From: Microterricola gilva | GTDB lineage: Bacteria; Actinomycetota; Actinomycetes; Actinomycetales; Microbacteriaceae | Assembly: GCF_004217495.1 (NCBI RefSeq) | Contig: NZ_SHLC01000001.1 | Location: 3,472,001 to 3,536,000, forward strand | DNA length: 64,000 nt | Direction: 5' to 3' | Shown: piece after piece, positions 4,765-60,640 of the stretch | Layout of the letters: each line of letters begins with the position of its first letter | Numbering within the stretch: position 1 is the stretch's first letter | Translations under genes and position numbers: made by a program | Notes under the pieces: generated by a model | What the model was told of the DNA's origin: nothing | The model's database searches: none | What the model saw: only the letters and a program-made list of their open reading frames with translations

Positions 4765-6135
4765 GTGCTCATCTGCCTCTCTGCGAGTCACAAGAACTCT
4801 CACTTCGATCTGCTCGAACAGCTCTCTGTCGACGCGGCGGCCATGGGCGAGCGCATCGTGAGCGAACACCGCGCGCTTCCCGGGGCTCCGGCCCTGCAGG
4901 GCGCCGTCGTCGTTGCCACCTGCAACCGCTTCGAGACCTACCTCGATCTCGACGCCCCCTTCGGCCAGTCACCCCTGCCCACCGTGTTCGCCGCGATCGA
5001 CGCGGTCAGCGCCAGCACCGGGGTGAGCAGCGAGGTGCTGCGCGACAGCCTGCAGCTCGTGCACGGCAACGGCGTGGCCGAGCACCTCTTCGCCGTCTCG
5101 GCCGGCCTCGAATCCGTCGTCGTCGGCGAGGGCGAGATCGCCGGCCAGGTTCGCCGCTCTCTGGAGCAGGCACGCACAGCCGGAACGACGAGCCCCGAGC
5201 TGGAGCGCCTCTTCCAGCGCGCATCGCAGACCTCGCGCGGCGTCAAGAACCGCACCGGCATCGGCTCGGCCGGCCGCTCCCTCGTCCGACTCTCGCTCGA
5301 ACTCGCCGAGAGCCGTGTCAGCGACTGGGCCGAGACGAGCGTTCTGCTCGTCGGCACCGGGCGCTACGCCGGTGCGTCGCTGGCCGCGCTGCGCGACCGC
5401 GGAGCCGAGAACGTGCGGGTCTACTCGCCGTCCGGCCGGGCGGAGCGCTTCGCAACCAACCACGGCATCCTGCCCGTCGCGCACGCCGATTTCGCGGGCG
5501 TCGCGGCATCCGTCGACCTCATCGTGACCTGCACGACCGCCGAGACCCACGTCGTCGACGCCGCCCTGCTCAGCGCCGGCCGCGAGGCAGCGGCAACGCC
5601 GAGCGCCCGCCAGTTGCTGATCGACCTCGGCCTGCCGCGCAACATCGACCCCGATGTGGCCGAGCTGACCGGCGTCGAACTGCTCGACCTCGAGACGATC
5701 AGCATCCACGCGCCGCTCGAGGAGCTGAACGCCACGCAGGAGGCCCGCGCCATCGTCGGCAAGGCCGCCCGCACCTTCACGAAGGTCGCGGAGGAGCAGT
5801 CACTCGCCCCCGCCGTCGTCGCGCTCCGCAGCCACGTCTTCGACCTCCTCGACGCCGAGATCGCCCGCGCGCAGAGCAAGGGCGATCCGGACGGACGCAT
5901 CGAGCAGTCGCTGCGCCACCTCGCCGGGGTGCTGCTGCACACGCCCATGGTGCGCTCCCGCGAGCTCGCCCGCGACGGCGAGCAGCAGGCTTGGCTCGAC
6001 GGCCTTGACGCCCTCTTCGGCCTGAAGATCGAGACCCCGGATGCCGCACGCGCCGGTTCCGACATCCCGAGCATCACGGGCACCGCGGCCGGTTGCCCGG
6101 TCGGCGGCGACCGCCTGCGCGCGGCCAACGACTAG
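4765..6135 (+). CDS. hemA: Glutamyl-tRNA reductase
   Basis: A 456-aa enzyme that reduces glutamyl-tRNA(Glu) to glutamate-1-semialdehyde with NADPH, the first committed step of C5 tetrapyrrole synthesis. The N-terminal catalytic domain has [12 protein letters not shown] with the nucleophilic Cys53. [18 protein letters not shown] and the NADPH-domain motif [17 protein letters not shown] follow, and the C-terminal dimerisation helix region includes [13 protein letters not shown]. The GTG start gives the family-typical [11 protein letters not shown] opening. It diverges from hemE across about 250 bp, so both promoters lie in that gap. The gene seems complete; the hydrophilic tail ending in RLRAAND is not unusual. 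Confidence 0.96.
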
Positions 6136-42244: not shown

Positions 42245-43942
42245 GTGTCTGAGGAAGGTCGCCTGATCGCTGGGCGCTACCAGGTTGGCGACCTCATCGG
42301 CCGCGGCGGCATGTCCGACGTGCACCGCGGAACGGATTCCCGCCTCGGGCGCACGGTGGCCATCAAGCTGCTTAAGCCGTCGCTCGCCAGCGACCCGGCG
42401 TTCCGCACGCGCTTCCGTCAGGAGGCGCAGGCCGCCGCGCGCATGGCCCACCCGACGATCGTGCGCGTGTTCGACGCCGGCGAGGAGACGATCACCGACG
42501 CGAACGGCCACGAGTCGCAGCTGCCGTTCATCGTGATGGAGTACGTCGACGGCACGCTGCTGAAGGATCTGATCAAGCAGGGGCCGCTCTCGTCGGCCGA
42601 GGCCGTTCGCATCCTCGACGGCGTCCTCACCGCGCTCGAGTACTCGCACCGTGCCGGTGTCGTTCACCGCGACATCAAGCCGGGCAACATCATGATCACC
42701 CGCAACGGCCAGGTGAAGGTGATGGACTTCGGCATCGCCAGGGCCATCTCCGATTCCTCGACGACGGTTGCTCAGACGACCGCGATCCTGGGCACCGCCT
42801 CCTACTTCTCTCCAGAGCAGGCCAAGGGCGAGATCGTTGATGCGCGCACCGATCTGTACTCGACCGGTGTCGTGCTGTTCGAGATGTTGACGTCTCGGCC
42901 GCCGTTCCGCGGCGACACGCCGGTGGCGATCGCCTACCAGCACGTGTCTGAGACCGCACCCAAGCCCAGCAGCTTCAACCCCCAGGTGTCGCCGGCGCTC
43001 GACGTCGTCGTGGCCAGGGCGATGACGAAGGACCGCGAGCAGCGCTACCAGAGCGCCGCCGAGTTCCGCGCGGACCTCGACCTGGCCGGCGCAGGTCAGG
43101 TTCCCATTCACCGGGCACCCGATTCCTCCGCGACCTCGCTCTTCAGCCAGGACCCGCACAGCATCTCCGGTTCCGAACTGGCGCTCAAGCAACTCTCCGA
43201 AGACACCAACATGGTGCGCACGCAGCGCCGCCCACCTGCGCTGTGGATCTGGGCCGGCGTGCTGAGCGTGATCGTGATCGTGATCACGGTCATGATCTGG
43301 GTGCTCAACCTGAACACGGAAACCGAGCTGCCACCGACCTCACGCGAGGTTCCCGTACTCACCGGGCTGAGTTTTGCCGAGGCCCAGGAAGCCCTGGCCG
43401 GGCTCGAACTGCAGTCCGTGGAGGCGCGGGAGGCCAGCTCGACGGTTCCCGTCGATCAGGTGATCCGCACCATGCCGGCCGCTGGAGGCATTGTCAGTCC
43501 AGAGACCATGATCACCGTGTACGTCTCGTCTGGCAAGGTTGTGATTCCCATTCCGGATGTCGCCAACCTCAGCATCGCGGATGCCGAGGCGAAGCTGGGC
43601 GAAGCCGGCTTCGTCCTCGGGCTCACGACGAAGCAGAATTCGCCGACGATTGCGGCCGACGTCGTACTCGAGACAGACCCGGCCGGCGGGGCATCCGCCC
43701 ACGAGGGTGACACCGTGAATCTCACCGTGTCCAGCGGCCTCGTGACTCTGCCTGATCTCACGAGCCAGACACTCAGCGCGGCGACCTCGATCCTCGCCGG
43801 GCCCGATCTGCAACTCACAGCCGAACCCGTGCCCGACCCAGCCTGCGCGGCACAGCCGGGCGATCCGATCACGCACCAGTCGTTGGTCGGCGACGTGCCG
43901 CAGCGCTCAACGGTGCAGCTCAGCTACTGCTCGGGCGACTGA
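42245..43942 (+). CDS. pknB: PknB-like Ser/Thr kinase with three PASTA domains
   Basis: A 565-aa kinase, last gene of the cluster. The kinase domain has DLIGRGGMSDVHRG, Lys41 in [28 protein letters not shown] and SPEQAKGE. One membrane segment (about residues 337-357) is followed by three PASTA domains, REVPVLTGLSFAEAQEALAG, IPDVANLSIADAEAKLGEAG and LPDLTSQTLSAATSIL. The third has a Cys pair (PACAAQ and SYCSGD) that could form a disulfide. The PASTA part senses muropeptides or lipid II. The GTG start has GGGAG upstream, and TAACAT about 36 bp before it may be a second promoter for pknB. Confidence 0.93.
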   Translation: MSEEGRLIAGRYQVGDLIGRGGMSDVHRGTDSRLGRTVAIKLLKPSLASDPAFRTRFRQEAQAAARMAHPTIVRVFDAGEETITDANGHESQLPFIVMEYVDGTLLKDLIKQGPLSSAEAVRILDGVLTALEYSHRAGVVHRDIKPGNIMITRNGQVKVMDFGIARAISDSSTTVAQTTAILGTASYFSPEQAKGEIVDARTDLYSTGVVLFEMLTSRPPFRGDTPVAIAYQHVSETAPKPSSFNPQVSPALDVVVARAMTKDREQRYQSAAEFRADLDLAGAGQVPIHRAPDSSATSLFSQDPHSISGSELALKQLSEDTNMVRTQRRPPALWIWAGVLSVIVIVITVMIWVLNLNTETELPPTSREVPVLTGLSFAEAQEALAGLELQSVEAREASSTVPVDQVIRTMPAAGGIVSPETMITVYVSSGKVVIPIPDVANLSIADAEAKLGEAGFVLGLTTKQNSPTIAADVVLETDPAGGASAHEGDTVNLTVSSGLVTLPDLTSQTLSAATSILAGPDLQLTAEPVPDPACAAQPGDPITHQSLVGDVPQRSTVQLSYCSGD

Positions 43943-44814: not shown

Positions 44815-45609
44815 TCAGCCCTCCTGCGCCTGAGCGGCGACTTGTGCGGCAATCTCGGCCGGCGGCCCAGCGCTGAGAGGCTGCCAGCTCTCGAACACGC
44901 CGTAGGCGATGATGCGCTCGTCGGTGGAGAGCAGCGGATTGCAACTGGTCAATGTGATGAGCCGCTCAGCGGGCGCGACGCCCTCCTGGCGTGGAACGGG
45001 CGCGAGAACGTCACCAGCACTCGGCTGCACATACTCAAGATTGCGGAATCGGTATGTGTAGTAGCCGTCCGGCGTCTGCACGTAGATCCCGTCGCCGAGC
45101 TGGAGCTCGTTGATCAGGTGCATGCCCCCGCCCCACGCACTGCGGTGCGCCGCCAACGCCATGTTTCCGACCTCGCCGGGCATCTGGGTGTTCTCGTAGC
45201 GTCCGACGCCGAGATACATGCTGTTCAGGACATCAAAGGTCGTGCCCACCGCGATGTTGCGCGCATACTCCGGCCCATAGCGCGGAACATAGAGCACGCC
45301 GAGAATCTCGCCGTGTTCGGGAGGGGCGGCCACGGGTGGCTCACCGTAGTCGATCGGCGTCGCCGGGTCCGCCGGCTCCTGCGGGGTGACGGGTGCTTCG
45401 GCTTGCCCAATCCATTCCTGGCTCTGGGATGCCGCGGAACTCGTCTGTTGATTGGCCATCACGGCGTCGTTCCACCACAGCTGCCAGGCGAGGAAGAGCA
45501 GCACGAGCACGCCGGCGGTGATCAGTAACTCACCGAGGACACCAACGACGCTGACGCGTCGCCTGGCGCGACGCCGCCTCGTCGGGGTCGCAACGTGGGC
45601 CTCGGTCAT
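44815..45609 (-). CDS. srtE: Class E sortase
   Basis: A 264-aa sortase. A basic N-terminus (TRRRRARRRVSVV) precedes one membrane segment (residues 21-43) and a Pro/Ala-rich linker. The sortase barrel begins near residue 100 (EILGVLYVPRYGPEYARNIA). The triad is His155 in NMALAAHRSAWGGG, Cys223 in LITLTSCNPLLSTDERII and Arg232. Class E enzymes attach LAXTG-type proteins or pilins to the wall. TAGGAT lies 6 nt before the ATG, so it may be leaderless; crgA diverges about 80 bp away. No substrate with a sorting signal is encoded in the window. Confidence 0.93.
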   Translation of the reverse strand: MTEAHVATPTRRRRARRRVSVVGVLGELLITAGVLVLLFLAWQLWWNDAVMANQQTSSAASQSQEWIGQAEAPVTPQEPADPATPIDYGEPPVAAPPEHGEILGVLYVPRYGPEYARNIAVGTTFDVLNSMYLGVGRYENTQMPGEVGNMALAAHRSAWGGGMHLINELQLGDGIYVQTPDGYYTYRFRNLEYVQPSAGDVLAPVPRQEGVAPAERLITLTSCNPLLSTDERIIAYGVFESWQPLSAGPPAEIAAQVAAQAQEG

Positions 45610-45674
45610 GGCCCAATCCTATTCGAGCCATGCCCGGCGCCCCGCTGTGCTCAGCAACTCCGAGGTGATCAGGA

Positions 45675-45680
45675 TAGAAT
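45675..45680 (+). promoter_or_regulatory. -10 hexamer TAGAAT for crgA, leaderless type
   Basis: TAGAAT is followed by 7 nt and the ATG of crgA. There is no ribosome site in the 7 nt. Confidence 0.5.
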
Positions 45681-45687
45681 CGCTCGC

Positions 45688-45930
45688 ATGGCACGCACGA
45701 AATCATCGAAGCCCGCACCTGTGGTTGACAACCGTTCCGGTGAAGACGCCCCGAACGCGGTCTGGTTCAAGCCCGTGATGTTCGGCTTCATGCTGCTCGG
45801 GCTGGTGTGGATCATCGTCTTCTACGTCAGCCAGGGCGCCTGGCCCGTCGCCGCGCTCGGTTCGTGGAACATCCTGGTTGGCTTCGGCATCGCCTTCATC
45901 GGCTTCCTCATGACGACCCGCTGGCGCTGA
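45688..45930 (+). CDS. crgA: Cell division protein CrgA
   Basis: An 80-aa actinobacterial septation protein. A basic N-terminus (MARTKSSKPAPVVDN) is followed by NAVWFKPVMFGFMLLGLVWI, a short loop and the second membrane helix WNILVGFGIAFIGFLMTTRW. CrgA interacts with FtsZ, FtsQ and PBPs in mycobacteria and Streptomyces. The size and the two-helix layout fit the family closely. It diverges from the sortase gene, and a strong terminator follows 21 bp after its stop. Confidence 0.95.
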   Translation: MARTKSSKPAPVVDNRSGEDAPNAVWFKPVMFGFMLLGLVWIIVFYVSQGAWPVAALGSWNILVGFGIAFIGFLMTTRWR

Positions 45931-45951
45931 CGCCACCCCCATCGACGATCT

Positions 45952-45983
45952 GGTCGCCGCCCCATGGGGCGGCGACCATTTTT
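45952..45983 (+). terminator. Rho-independent terminator of crgA
   Basis: GGTCGCCGCCCCA and TGGGGCGGCGACC form a perfect 13-bp stem with no loop bases beyond the centre, followed by ATTTTTG. It points away from crgA. Confidence 0.92.
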
Positions 45984-46031
45984 GTGTCGGCTGGCGGTCG
46001 CGACCCCGAGCGGTGTAACCCCATTAGAAAG

Positions 46032-46131
46032 TTATCCACAGCCGTTTACCCGTGTGGAAAGTTACATCCGTGTAATTATCCCCAGTGTTAATAACCCTGT
46101 GGATAGATTCTGTGGAGAACTCTGTGGAGAG
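46032..46131. other. DnaA-box cluster between convergent genes
   Basis: One perfect box TTATCCACA (46032-46040); three with one mismatch: TTATCCCCA (46076-46084), TGTGGATAG (46098-46106), TGTGGAGAA (46111-46119); two weaker: TGTGGAAAG (46053-46061) and TGTGGAGAG (46123-46131). The stretch is AT-rich for this genome and includes TTACA-N4-TGTAA and TTAATAA. It lies after the crgA terminator and just beyond the rhomboid gene stop, so it is not a promoter of either gene. Confidence 0.75.
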
Positions 46132-46142
46132 ATTCGGGCCCG

Positions 46143-46997
46143 TCAGAACAGCGGGAAGAAGAAATAGCGCAGGCTGAGGAGCACCAGAACGAGCGAGAAC
46201 GCCACGAGGAGGACGATCTGCAGCTTCTGCTGATCGCGCTTGCGCGTCTCGACGAAGATCAGTCCGACGACGGCACCACCGATGAGACCACCGAGGTGCG
46301 CCTGCCATGCGATGTTCATGCCGGGGATGAAGCCGATGACGAGGTTGATGCCGACCAGCACCAGCAGCTGCGTGGCATTGCCACCGAGCCGCCGCTGAAT
46401 AACGAGGAACGCACCCATCAGAGCGAAGATGGCGCCGGAGGCCCCGACCACAGGGGTGAGGGGGTCACTCAGCAGCAGAACGCCGACCGATCCGGCGAAT
46501 CCGCCGATCAGGTAGAGCGCGAGGAACCGCCAGCGCCCGAGCAGCTGTTCGAGCAACTGCCCGAAGATCCACAGCGTGTACATGTTGAGCAGCACGTGGA
46601 AGATGAAGCCGGTCGAGTGCACGAACATCGACGTGATCATGCGCCACGGCTCGAACGATCCCGGGTGCGAGTACACGCCGGCGTACCAGAGCGCGCCGGT
46701 CACCTGGCTGCCGATGACGGGCAGGACCTGCAGCACGAAGACGAGCAGGGTGATGCCGATGAGGCTGTATGTCACAACCGGTGCGCCGCGTCCCGTCATC
46801 CGGGTCAACAGCGCCGACTTGGTGCGGGGCGCCGATGCCCGCTGCTCACGCATGCACTCAGGGCAGATAACGCCAACTGCCCCGACTGTTTGACAGTCGG
46901 GGCAGATGGTACGGCCACAACGCTGACAGAGCACGAAGCTCTGACGCGAGGGGTGCCGGTAGCAGTAGTTTGCCGCCGAGTCCGGCACCGAGCTCAT
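46143..46997 (-). CDS. Rhomboid-family intramembrane serine protease
   Basis: A 284-aa protease. The N-terminal 50 residues hold a B-box/zinc-ribbon-like set of Cys and His (CYRHPSRQSFVLCQRCGRTI, CPDC and CPEC). The rhomboid domain with six or seven membrane segments follows: HVLLNMYTLWIFG (His134/Asn138), the nucleophile Ser187 in VVGASGAIFALMGAF, and the catalytic His234 in WQAHLGGLIGG. It cleaves single-pass membrane proteins; the substrate is unknown. It lies 7 bp after ppiA on the same strand and is probably cotranscribed. A DnaA-box cluster lies just beyond its stop. Confidence 0.93.
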   Translation of the reverse strand: MSSVPDSAANYCYRHPSRQSFVLCQRCGRTICPDCQTVGAVGVICPECMREQRASAPRTKSALLTRMTGRGAPVVTYSLIGITLLVFVLQVLPVIGSQVTGALWYAGVYSHPGSFEPWRMITSMFVHSTGFIFHVLLNMYTLWIFGQLLEQLLGRWRFLALYLIGGFAGSVGVLLLSDPLTPVVGASGAIFALMGAFLVIQRRLGGNATQLLVLVGINLVIGFIPGMNIAWQAHLGGLIGGAVVGLIFVETRKRDQQKLQIVLLVAFSLVLVLLSLRYFFFPLF

Positions 46998-58304: not shown

Positions 58305-58459
58305 GAAGGCGCTCCTGTTCGCTGCTTGTCGATTGCGCCAGACAGCGGGGCTGACTGGCTGGGCTCCATGCTAACCCCTGCCATTACGGCGTGGGTTTCT
58401 TGTCATTCGTTTCGGGTCGTGGGCGGCTCGGCCGTCCACAAGGTTGTCGCATGGGAGAT

Positions 58460-58700
58460 CTCTTTAAGAATTCTTTAACGGTCTTAACCGCTGTGGAAAC
58501 TGTGGATAACTATGTTAATTCGTTGTATACACAGAGAACTACGCGGCTGTCACTTGTTGAAGCTGTGTGAGCGTTAATGCCCTCATGCATGAGGTGTGGA
58601 CCGCGGCGAAGGGCTGAAACCCACAAGAACACGGCATTCTTCAACAGCTTCATGCGAGTTGCTCATTAACTATCCACAAGTTATCCACAACATGTGAGTA
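58460..58700. other. oriC: Replication origin oriC (dnaA-dnaN spacer)
   Basis: The 437-bp gap between dnaA and dnaN has the origin features. DnaA boxes: TGTGGATAA (58501-58509) and TTATCCACA (58681-58689) are perfect; CTATCCACA (58670-58678) has one mismatch and TGTGGAAAC (58492-58500) two. CTTTAAGAATTCTTTAACGG at about 58461-58480 is AT-rich and may be the unwinding element. A perfect palindrome CCTCATGCATGAGG (58581-58594) and an inverted pair TGAAGCTGT/ACAGCTTCA (58558-58566 and 58644-58652) lie between the boxes. Confidence 0.92.
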
Positions 58701-58741
58701 GTGGAATATTCTGGCGGCCCGGGCGCGTCGAGCGCAAGCCC

Positions 58742-60217: not shown

Positions 60218-60640
60218 TGTTCTCCACACTGCTTGGTGTTTCTGCGATGCTCGTGCCTACCTCGGGGCCGCGGCAGTGGTGCTGCGTGCGGATGGCGGTG
60301 CCATGGATCCGAGAAAGATGAAAAGTACTCACAGAGTTATCCACCGCTGTGGGTAACTCAGACAAAACTAGCGGAACTATGGGTATCTTGCTGGGGATAA
60401 CTTCGTGGTGAATGCTCAGATCCGACCCGGAGACCAGCAGAATATTGGGCGGGGCGCCCGCGTGTCGCTGCTGCGCAAGCTGTGAAGATCATGGAGAATC
60501 CGCAGCCGATCAGGCATCCGGTTTGACCGGAGCCTGCTCAGGCCGTAGTTTTAATAGGTTGACCCCAGCCTTCTGGCTGCCCAAATTTCTTTCCCGGCCA
60601 CATCGAGGCTCGTGGAGATCCAAGACGTGGAGTACACACA
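60218..60640. promoter_or_regulatory. dnaA-rpmH divergent intergenic region with DnaA boxes
   Basis: This 423-bp gene-free stretch must hold the promoters of dnaA (leftward) and rpmH (rightward). Facing imperfect DnaA boxes TTATCCACC (60337-60345) and TGTGGGTAA (60348-60356) lie in the inverted repeat GAGTTATCCAC...GTGGGTAACTC, about 120 bp upstream of the dnaA start. TGGGGATAA (60392-60400) is a third weak box. These fit DnaA autoregulation. I see no gene in the region. Confidence 0.75.

Follow-up and report, generated by a model that had tools for sequence, protein, structure and literature searches.

The window analysed here, 64,000 nucleotides of the Microterricola gilva genome (Microbacteriaceae), contains a non-coding cluster of boxes for the initiator DnaA at positions 46032-46131, in the gap between crgA and a rhomboid-family gene. 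The cell-division protein CrgA is encoded on the + strand at 45688-45930 (Pfam PF06781, E 4.9e-27) and the rhomboid-family protein on the - strand at 46143-46997 (Pfam PF01694, E 3.7e-34); the two genes converge and both end at the site. The original prediction had placed the cluster about 12 kb from oriC between convergent genes, and had counted six DnaA boxes within 100 bp: one exact, three that differ at a single position and two weaker. Sequence inspection and a box scan confirmed the count, and the distance to the oriC region, the dnaN-dnaA gap with its three DnaA boxes (58305-58741, no strand; box scan and gene calls), was measured as 12.2 kb. The cluster is AT-rich, as had been claimed, with 45% G+C over the 100 bp compared with 68% for the window, and the TTAATAA that had been singled out (46088-46094) sits within a weak DnaA box, box II TGTTAATAA. 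A probable crgA terminator, a hairpin with a T-run on the + strand at about 45950-45985 (RNA fold -27.0 kcal/mol), is separate from the box cluster. The view that the cluster, lying after this terminator and past the rhomboid stop, is a promoter of neither gene also held: a promoter of crgA or of the rhomboid gene in the window was rejected on the convergence of the genes and the lack of a TTGAC.

The cluster is built around a dyad-symmetric, operator-like palindrome, AGTTACATCCGTGTAATT (46060-46077, no strand), found by motif search and recurring in whiB2 promoters. Its core is an exact TTACA-N4-TGTAA, TTACATCCGTGTAA (46062-46075), which had been overlooked in the first reading of the sequence. 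On the left, a mirror-image arm carries the exact box III' TTATCCACA on its outer side (46032-46040, +) and the weak box I' CTTTCCACA, with two mismatches, adjoining the palindrome (46053-46061, -). To the right, box I TTATCCCCA (one mismatch; 46076-46084, +; box scan and alignment A1) abuts the palindrome and is followed after 1 bp by the weak box II (46086-46094, -; alignment A1) and, 3 bp further on, by box III CTATCCACA (one mismatch; 46098-46106, -; box scan and A1). Two extra boxes lie beyond, TTCTCCACA with one mismatch (46111-46119, -; box scan) and the weak CTCTCCACA with two (46123-46131, -).

Boxes with at most one mismatch numbered 12 in the window, with 1.92 expected, and none of 100 shuffles reached 12; the remaining eight were found in the dnaN-dnaA gap (three), at or upstream of the dnaA start (four) and inside crgA (one). 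The complete genome of 3.67 Mb holds 132 such boxes, a total of which the individually listed boxes are a part (one-mismatch boxes were listed only up to about 3.0 Mb), so that four boxes within 88 bp are far beyond chance. A chance origin was likewise ruled out by the window shuffles and by shuffles of single gaps, in which 0.00-0.18 boxes were expected. The palindrome is the single match to TTACA-N4-TGTAA in the 64-kb window, even allowing one mismatch (0.04 expected). A possible further cluster elsewhere in the genome consists of a pair of exact DnaA boxes at a spacing of 68 bp (L101, 925-933 and 993-1001, at 3602.9-3603.0 kb of the genome), some 72 kb away on the other side of oriC.

Conservation and architecture in the Microbacteriaceae

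CrgA was present in 198 of 199 family genomes. From these, 73 loci were picked by CrgA alone, roughly one for each genus and in a few cases a second species, which with the window gave 74. The rhomboid gene converges on crgA in 73 of the 74, the exception being L037. At least one box with no more than one mismatch was found in 66 of the 73 crgA-rhomboid gaps, and the exact TTATCCACA in 59; dinucleotide shuffling gave an expectation of 0.00-0.18 boxes for each gap (four gaps of more than 2.5 kb or less than 30 bp were left out). Conservation in close relatives, on which the original prediction had staked itself, was thus found in most genera examined, and it extends across the class. In 49 loci with both dnaN and dnaA, box density was 11.7 per kb in the crgA-rhomboid gap, 4.9 per kb in the dnaN-dnaA gap, 1.1 per kb outward from the dnaA start and 0.10 per kb in the other 715 kb.

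The rhomboid stop and dnaN lay 10.6-17.2 kb apart, with a median of 12.2 kb (53 loci). This range suits a pure DnaA sink, in which a high-affinity cluster near the origin would do no more than titrate DnaA and the palindrome would be two more weak DnaA sites; E. coli boxes are likewise described as crowding towards oriC (PMC12371093). A constant place near oriC, beside a divisome gene, could also suit an anchor for chromosome organisation or origin positioning in which DnaA is structural. We consider this very unlikely.

Several loci depart from the usual layout. In L036, L059, L068, L086 and L111 the crgA-rhomboid gap is widened to 1-2.7 kb and still holds 1-5 DnaA boxes. In L082 the orientation of dnaA and dnaN with respect to crgA is the reverse of that in the other loci, which suggests a local inversion around oriC. 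In L003, L014 and L017 an inverted repeat resembling CGAAC-N4-GTTCG directly precedes the palindrome; it resembles an SOS box, and could alternatively be the crgA terminator.

Alignment of 34 sequences (A1) defined a conserved core of 56 bp (46054-46109, + strand), with 84% mean column identity, from which profile R1 was built. A1 comprises 34 of the 38 loci with this exact spacing of boxes I to III, all except L034, L035, L056 and L068. Comparable parts occur in other loci, where the I-III spacing differs by a single base or a few, and in some the fit is poor. Pairwise identity (n=34) was 0.77 for the core, against 0.28-0.29 for the 100-bp flanks. The consensus from A1 and an anchored comparison is (GGGG) AATTACACCGGTGTAATTATCCCCA-G-TGTGGATAA-nCC-TGTGGATAACTT, that is, the palindrome TTACA-N4-TGTAA, the abutting box I TTATCCCCA (+), one base, the weaker box II (-), three bases and box III TTATCCACA (-). 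In A1, many relatives read TGTGGATnA at box II instead of TGTTAATAA, and most carry the exact TTATCCACA at box III where M. gilva has CTATCCACA. The exact palindrome was found once in each of 55 of 112 loci (some overlapping) and never twice per locus. Across the M. gilva genome R1 scored 57.3 bits at the crgA gap and at most 18.4 bits at every other locus; a second match at the gap, on the - strand (46029-46075, 29.2 bits), is the left mirror-image arm, which adds boxes on the other side.

The narrowness of this conservation bears on the suggestion, made in the original prediction, that the site titrates DnaA or is a secondary origin. The general idea of a role in DnaA control was supported; the secondary origin found nothing in its favour beyond AT-richness. 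A secondary or bipartite origin would agree with a box cluster in AT-richer DNA (45% against 68% G+C) and with the local minimum of cumulative GC skew at 43877, which lies 2.2 kb from the cluster and not at oriC. However, conservation is confined to the 56-bp core, outside which there is no conserved AT-rich stretch, the local skew seems to track the orientation of the genes, and a usual oriC with its own boxes is present at dnaN-dnaA. We regard this explanation as highly improbable.

A bidirectional terminator or structured RNA was rejected. The inverted boxes and the palindrome can pair (core -11.4 kcal/mol), but crgA has its own terminator, no Rfam family reached threshold across 45600-46500, and the box letters are kept exactly. 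The one arm position that the search left free showed no covariation (49 of 98 complementary, 46.6 expected), and the innermost pair (58, with 42.7 expected) consists of adjacent bases, which cannot pair in a hairpin.

Occurrence across the class

At E <=0.01, R1 matched 238 of 393 class genomes, its own family included, in 76 of 123 genera. The match adjoined crgA in 45 of the 49 loci read, which comprised 29 of the best-scoring and 20 chosen to span families. The other four were a second copy (L156), oriC itself (L166), and two loci in which a rhomboid gene lay near the match and crgA was not found (L167, L170). When 20 of the 155 R1-negative genomes were examined, crgA was present in all 20, with a box within 400 bp after it in 18 (none in that range in L297 and L311); the palindrome reached at least 11/14 in 12 of them and at least 12/14 in six.

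A gene-blind scan of a named genome collection, with a pattern of palindrome and box I, matched at least 120 stretches. Among the matches listed, 106 of 120 (70/80 and 36/40) lay 7-313 bp after the end of a CrgA match. The misses were 10 of the 80 (L175, L195, L209, L215 and L228, whose titles are outside the class, and L198, L214, L185, L240 and L246) and four of the 40 (L257, L260, L273, L291); in L198 and L214 the pattern fell near the end of the fetched stretch, and in L257 and L273 at its end. The nearest named relatives among the matches listed were Glaciibacter superstes (L183), whose rhomboid protein is 72% identical to that of M. gilva, and Cryobacterium (L206, L190).

Downstream of crgA the palindrome scored at least 12/14 in 58 of 74 family loci, selected by CrgA alone, and in 28/29 and 15/16 class loci, selected by R1. 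Control windows, placed 1 kb beyond or, in short loci, on the upstream side of crgA, contained a box in 4/208 and the palindrome (12/14) in 1/208.

Two mycobacterial genomes hold the element away from crgA (L156, 3535-3589; L240, about 6008-6029), near a gene whose product has an RSQIE-(N/A)-W-(D/E)-T-(S/A)-HL stretch. In the L156 genome this copy scores higher than the one at crgA (38.9 and 33.9 bits).

The palindrome at whiB2

In eight genomes a looser class form of the palindrome, AATNACACNNGTGTNATT with up to two mismatches, was found 2-11 times per genome and its reversed control 0-3 times. One further place in the M. gilva genome (737 kb), and one in a sister species, lies upstream of a WhiB-family gene. 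In whiB2 promoters the palindrome scored at least 12/14 in 29 of 30 Microbacteriaceae loci, the best from 80 genomes (control 0/60). The class set, made of the 28 best new matches of 88 genomes less L386, which gave no anchor, showed at least 11/14 in 22 of 27 loci and at least 12/14 in 17 (control 0/27). At whiB2 the palindrome follows a TTGAC at a distance fitting an operator between -35 and -10, and we infer that the two make up a promoter with its operator.

The two settings separate cleanly. A DnaA box accompanied the palindrome in 58/58 loci at crgA (class 43/43) and in 2/29 at whiB2 (class 0/17), whereas a TTGAC was nearby in 0/58 at crgA (class 1/43) and in 29/29 at whiB2 (class 14/17): crgA has DnaA boxes without a -35, and whiB2 the reverse. 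Because the palindrome is operator-like, a second regulator would share the crgA site with DnaA. The same comparison goes against a pure sink, since the whiB2 promoters hold the palindrome without DnaA boxes (27/29 in the family, 17/17 in the class), and titration needs a number of boxes, not a fixed 56-bp geometry.

In several large-genome families (L374, L377, L380, L383, L384) the half-site GTGTNATT occurs as direct repeats 14 bases apart, which would suit a protein that reads half-sites singly. Further copies of the palindrome in two mycobacterial genomes adjoin lexA or precede a few other genes. The lexA copies (L317 2055; L331 2015) lie between lexA and a LysM-domain gene, the place of the DNA-damage division gene Rv2719c. 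In two mycobacterial genomes (L319 2066; L322 2002) an identical palindrome lies close to where a membrane-protein-like gene (MPSIPQSLLWISLVVLWLFVLVPM) begins, beside a moeA-like gene; no Pfam family was found for this product, which resembles SepX.

Operators of the CopY, BldC, MtrA and BldD types were considered and not adopted, as their spacing or arrangement differs; the BldD box has a spacer one base shorter than that of the palindrome. The gene bldD is also described as lost many times (PMC4255298). WhiA, perhaps with WhiB2, is our leading, if tentative, candidate for the second regulator, because it is found in nearly all actinobacteria (PMC4255298), cooperates with WhiB on division genes (PMC4850268) and reads GACAC, a short asymmetric motif, as a monomer (PMC3781837). 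The Streptomyces WhiA/WhiB regulon (PMC3781837, PMC4850268) resembles the present case in its division-gene targets and in that GTGTC, which is GACAC reversed, forms part of half-site GTGTNATT; it differs in that the WhiA motif is 5 bp long and asymmetric, and the main text of neither paper contains the word DnaA. The half-site can be written NACAC/GTGTN, where N gives GACAC/GTGTC in some lineages and T/A in M. gilva.

The mycobacterial counterpart

In M. tuberculosis the corresponding gap is that between Rv0010c and Rv0011c, the latter being crgA. Hicks et al. (2020, PMC7738170) mapped DnaA to this gap as one of five strong sites found by in vitro DNA affinity purification with deep sequencing (IDAP-seq), confirmed it by electrophoretic mobility shift assay, and found homologues of the five in M. 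smegmatis by chromatin immunoprecipitation sequencing. Mutations and insertions that recur clinically are located, save for one, in a small palindrome that precedes Rv0010c by 65 bp, and engineered site variants gave longer cells, as dnaA variants did; the authors saw "no obvious correspondence" of the site in other species (PMC7738170).

In mycobacterial-type loci examined here the palindrome mostly reads AATCACAC-N2-GTGTGATT. In 18 of 19 such loci, 66 bp separate its end from the (M/V)QQT codon of the following gene; L155, which has TCC at that codon, is counted among the 18, and L238 gave no match. The element stands directly downstream of crgA in the window and in most of the class loci, and in mycobacteria the palindrome, with DnaA boxes beside it, lies about 65 bp before the next gene. 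Because the place after crgA and the palindrome spacing both match, the M. tuberculosis site being compared from the description by Hicks et al., we conclude that it and the M. gilva site appear to be orthologous. They differ in that the next gene is co-directional in mycobacteria and is the convergent rhomboid gene in M. gilva. The claim that no locus of this kind had been described next to crgA may therefore hold for the Microbacteriaceae, for which no paper was found, but fails for M. tuberculosis. Binding of DnaA to the Microbacteriaceae site is to be expected from the box sequences and from the 3-bp double-box spacing, E. coli DnaA being reported to prefer 2 or 3 bp (PMC11317965). In the window, four further DnaA boxes at 60220-60400, at and upstream of the dnaA start in the rpmH-dnaA gap, correspond to another of the five mycobacterial sites.

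The mycobacterial data complete the case for and against a sink. Hicks et al. called the palindrome DnaA-box-like, and clusters in S. coelicolor and B. subtilis are described as repressing untimely initiation (PMC5742627); yet mutants of the M. tuberculosis site resemble dnaA alleles that were likened to hypomorphs, the opposite of what freeing DnaA would give (PMC7738170). Together with the whiB2 comparison, this leaves a pure sink unlikely, although closeness to oriC favours it.

They also bear on an explanation in which DnaA, together with a second protein, would control the transcription of an adjacent gene. The mycobacterial site is upstream of a co-directional gene, the palindrome is a predicted promoter operator elsewhere, at whiB2, and Rv0010c was reported to be up-regulated in a higA2 mutant (PMC11205783). 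Nevertheless, both neighbours end at the site in the M. gilva window, TTGAC stood beside none of the 58 crgA palindromes, and expression of Rv0010c and Rv0011c was reported as unchanged in dnaA mutants (PMC7738170), so that we find this explanation quite improbable.

Comparison with DARS, datA and other box clusters

The DnaA-reactivating sequences (DARS) of E. coli, DARS1 and DARS2, have a three-box core in which box I is opposed to boxes II and III (definition in PMC5742627), as is the case here, and the II-III gap is 3 bp in both. The crgA element might therefore act by reactivation, with ADP-DnaA on opposed boxes exchanging ADP for ATP. The remaining geometry differs: the I-II gap is 5 bp in the DARS cores and 1 bp here, and the strong box is the middle one there and the outer one, III, here (the DARS1 sequence was taken from the bioD-uvrB gap). 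Partner sites are those of IHF and Fis in DARS and the palindrome at crgA. Loss of the mycobacterial site phenocopies presumed hypomorphic dnaA alleles, which with the opposed box I favours a DARS-like role; the dnaA mutants, however, were reported to show no difference in initiation rate (PMC7738170). We judge reactivation about as unlikely as a pure sink.

Like E. coli datA, the crgA element is a non-coding DnaA-box cluster outside oriC that has a site, putative at crgA, for a second protein. In datA that site binds IHF and serves IHF-dependent ATP hydrolysis, and loss of datA leads to extra initiations; no IHF-type site is known here (no search for one was made); the crgA element differs further in lying 12 kb from oriC and in its compact 56-bp core. 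DnaA-box clusters of S. coelicolor were reportedly described by Smulczyk-Krawczyszyn in 2006. In the single locus read from the large-genome family f24 (L161), boxes follow crgA and the palindrome was not found. The cluster named H69 in the 2006 Streptomyces paper may be the crgA locus. The S. coelicolor clusters are comparable in being actinobacterial and in restraining initiation, as cited in PMC5742627. The best reading is that the crgA element works like datA or DARS, and on the present tests we assign it to neither.

Discussion

We regard the site as neither an artefact nor an ordinary one, but as an ancient composite element with a described mycobacterial member. The explanation we favour, at a probability of roughly 0.6, is an ancestral actinobacterial non-coding site for control of DnaA that also carries a division-regulon operator. 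The pure sink and the DARS-like role overlap partly with it, and the odds given to the explanations do not sum to one.

The boxes, their conserved geometry, the palindrome and its second home at whiB2 are present in the DNA. From them a sequence of steps can be proposed. DnaA would load on the strong box III and spread to the weak box II, in the same direction and 3 bp away, and to the opposed box I. Lying about 12 kb from oriC, the site would be copied almost as soon as replication starts. Its type and its place near oriC suggest that it sets the pool of free active DnaA, either by holding DnaA or by changing its nucleotide state. The dyad operator of the second regulator, adjoining the boxes and sharing an edge with box I, would be the same as that predicted in the promoter of whiB2, a Wbl division regulator, where it falls between the -35 and the -10. 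Through it the second protein could gate DnaA control, and initiation would respond to the division programme.

Several observations weigh against this explanation. Seven of the 73 family gaps hold no box (L040, L045, L047, with a gap of 22 bp or none, L058, L064, L088, L100), and three of these are in genomes of 1.4-1.5 Mb, where the element must be dispensable. Palindromes equalled the reversed control (3 and 3) in one of the eight genomes (G135), scored just 8-9/14 in three class whiB2 promoters (f23), and were intragenic in three of 20 fetched places (L314, L324, L329), perhaps by chance; palindrome fractions also vary with the score cut-off. The M. gilva half-sites TTACAC and TTACAT fit the WhiA motif GACAC imperfectly. 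From mycobacteria, initiation rate was reported as unchanged in dnaA mutants, Hicks et al. read the palindrome as two DnaA-box-like sequences, DnaA binding has been shown by others only for M. tuberculosis and M. smegmatis (PMC7738170), and in vitro binding of the M. tuberculosis site by HigA2, complete at 8 uM, has been reported (PMC11205783).

The mycobacterial site itself was already known; the class-wide conservation, the architecture and the link of the palindrome to whiB2 are new. Among the papers listed by the literature searches, none gives the breadth, anatomy or whiB2 link of the element, none pairs DnaA boxes with crgA and none contains the palindrome sequence.

The timing of replication start is poorly known in actinobacteria compared with E. 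coli. A non-coding element of fixed geometry across a class points to a control point and to a partner protein to look for, and it places in an evolutionary context a mycobacterial site that is under selection in patients, suggesting what to seek there. In its fullest form, to which we give somewhat less than even odds, one cis-element beside crgA and oriC across the Actinomycetes would join DnaA to the regulator of the whiB2 regulon, as a switch by which the division programme sets initiator activity, and the clinical palindrome mutations of M. tuberculosis would hit the operator of that regulator and not a DnaA box. With DnaA sites and a putative division-regulator site in one element, the locus may link the start of replication to cell division.
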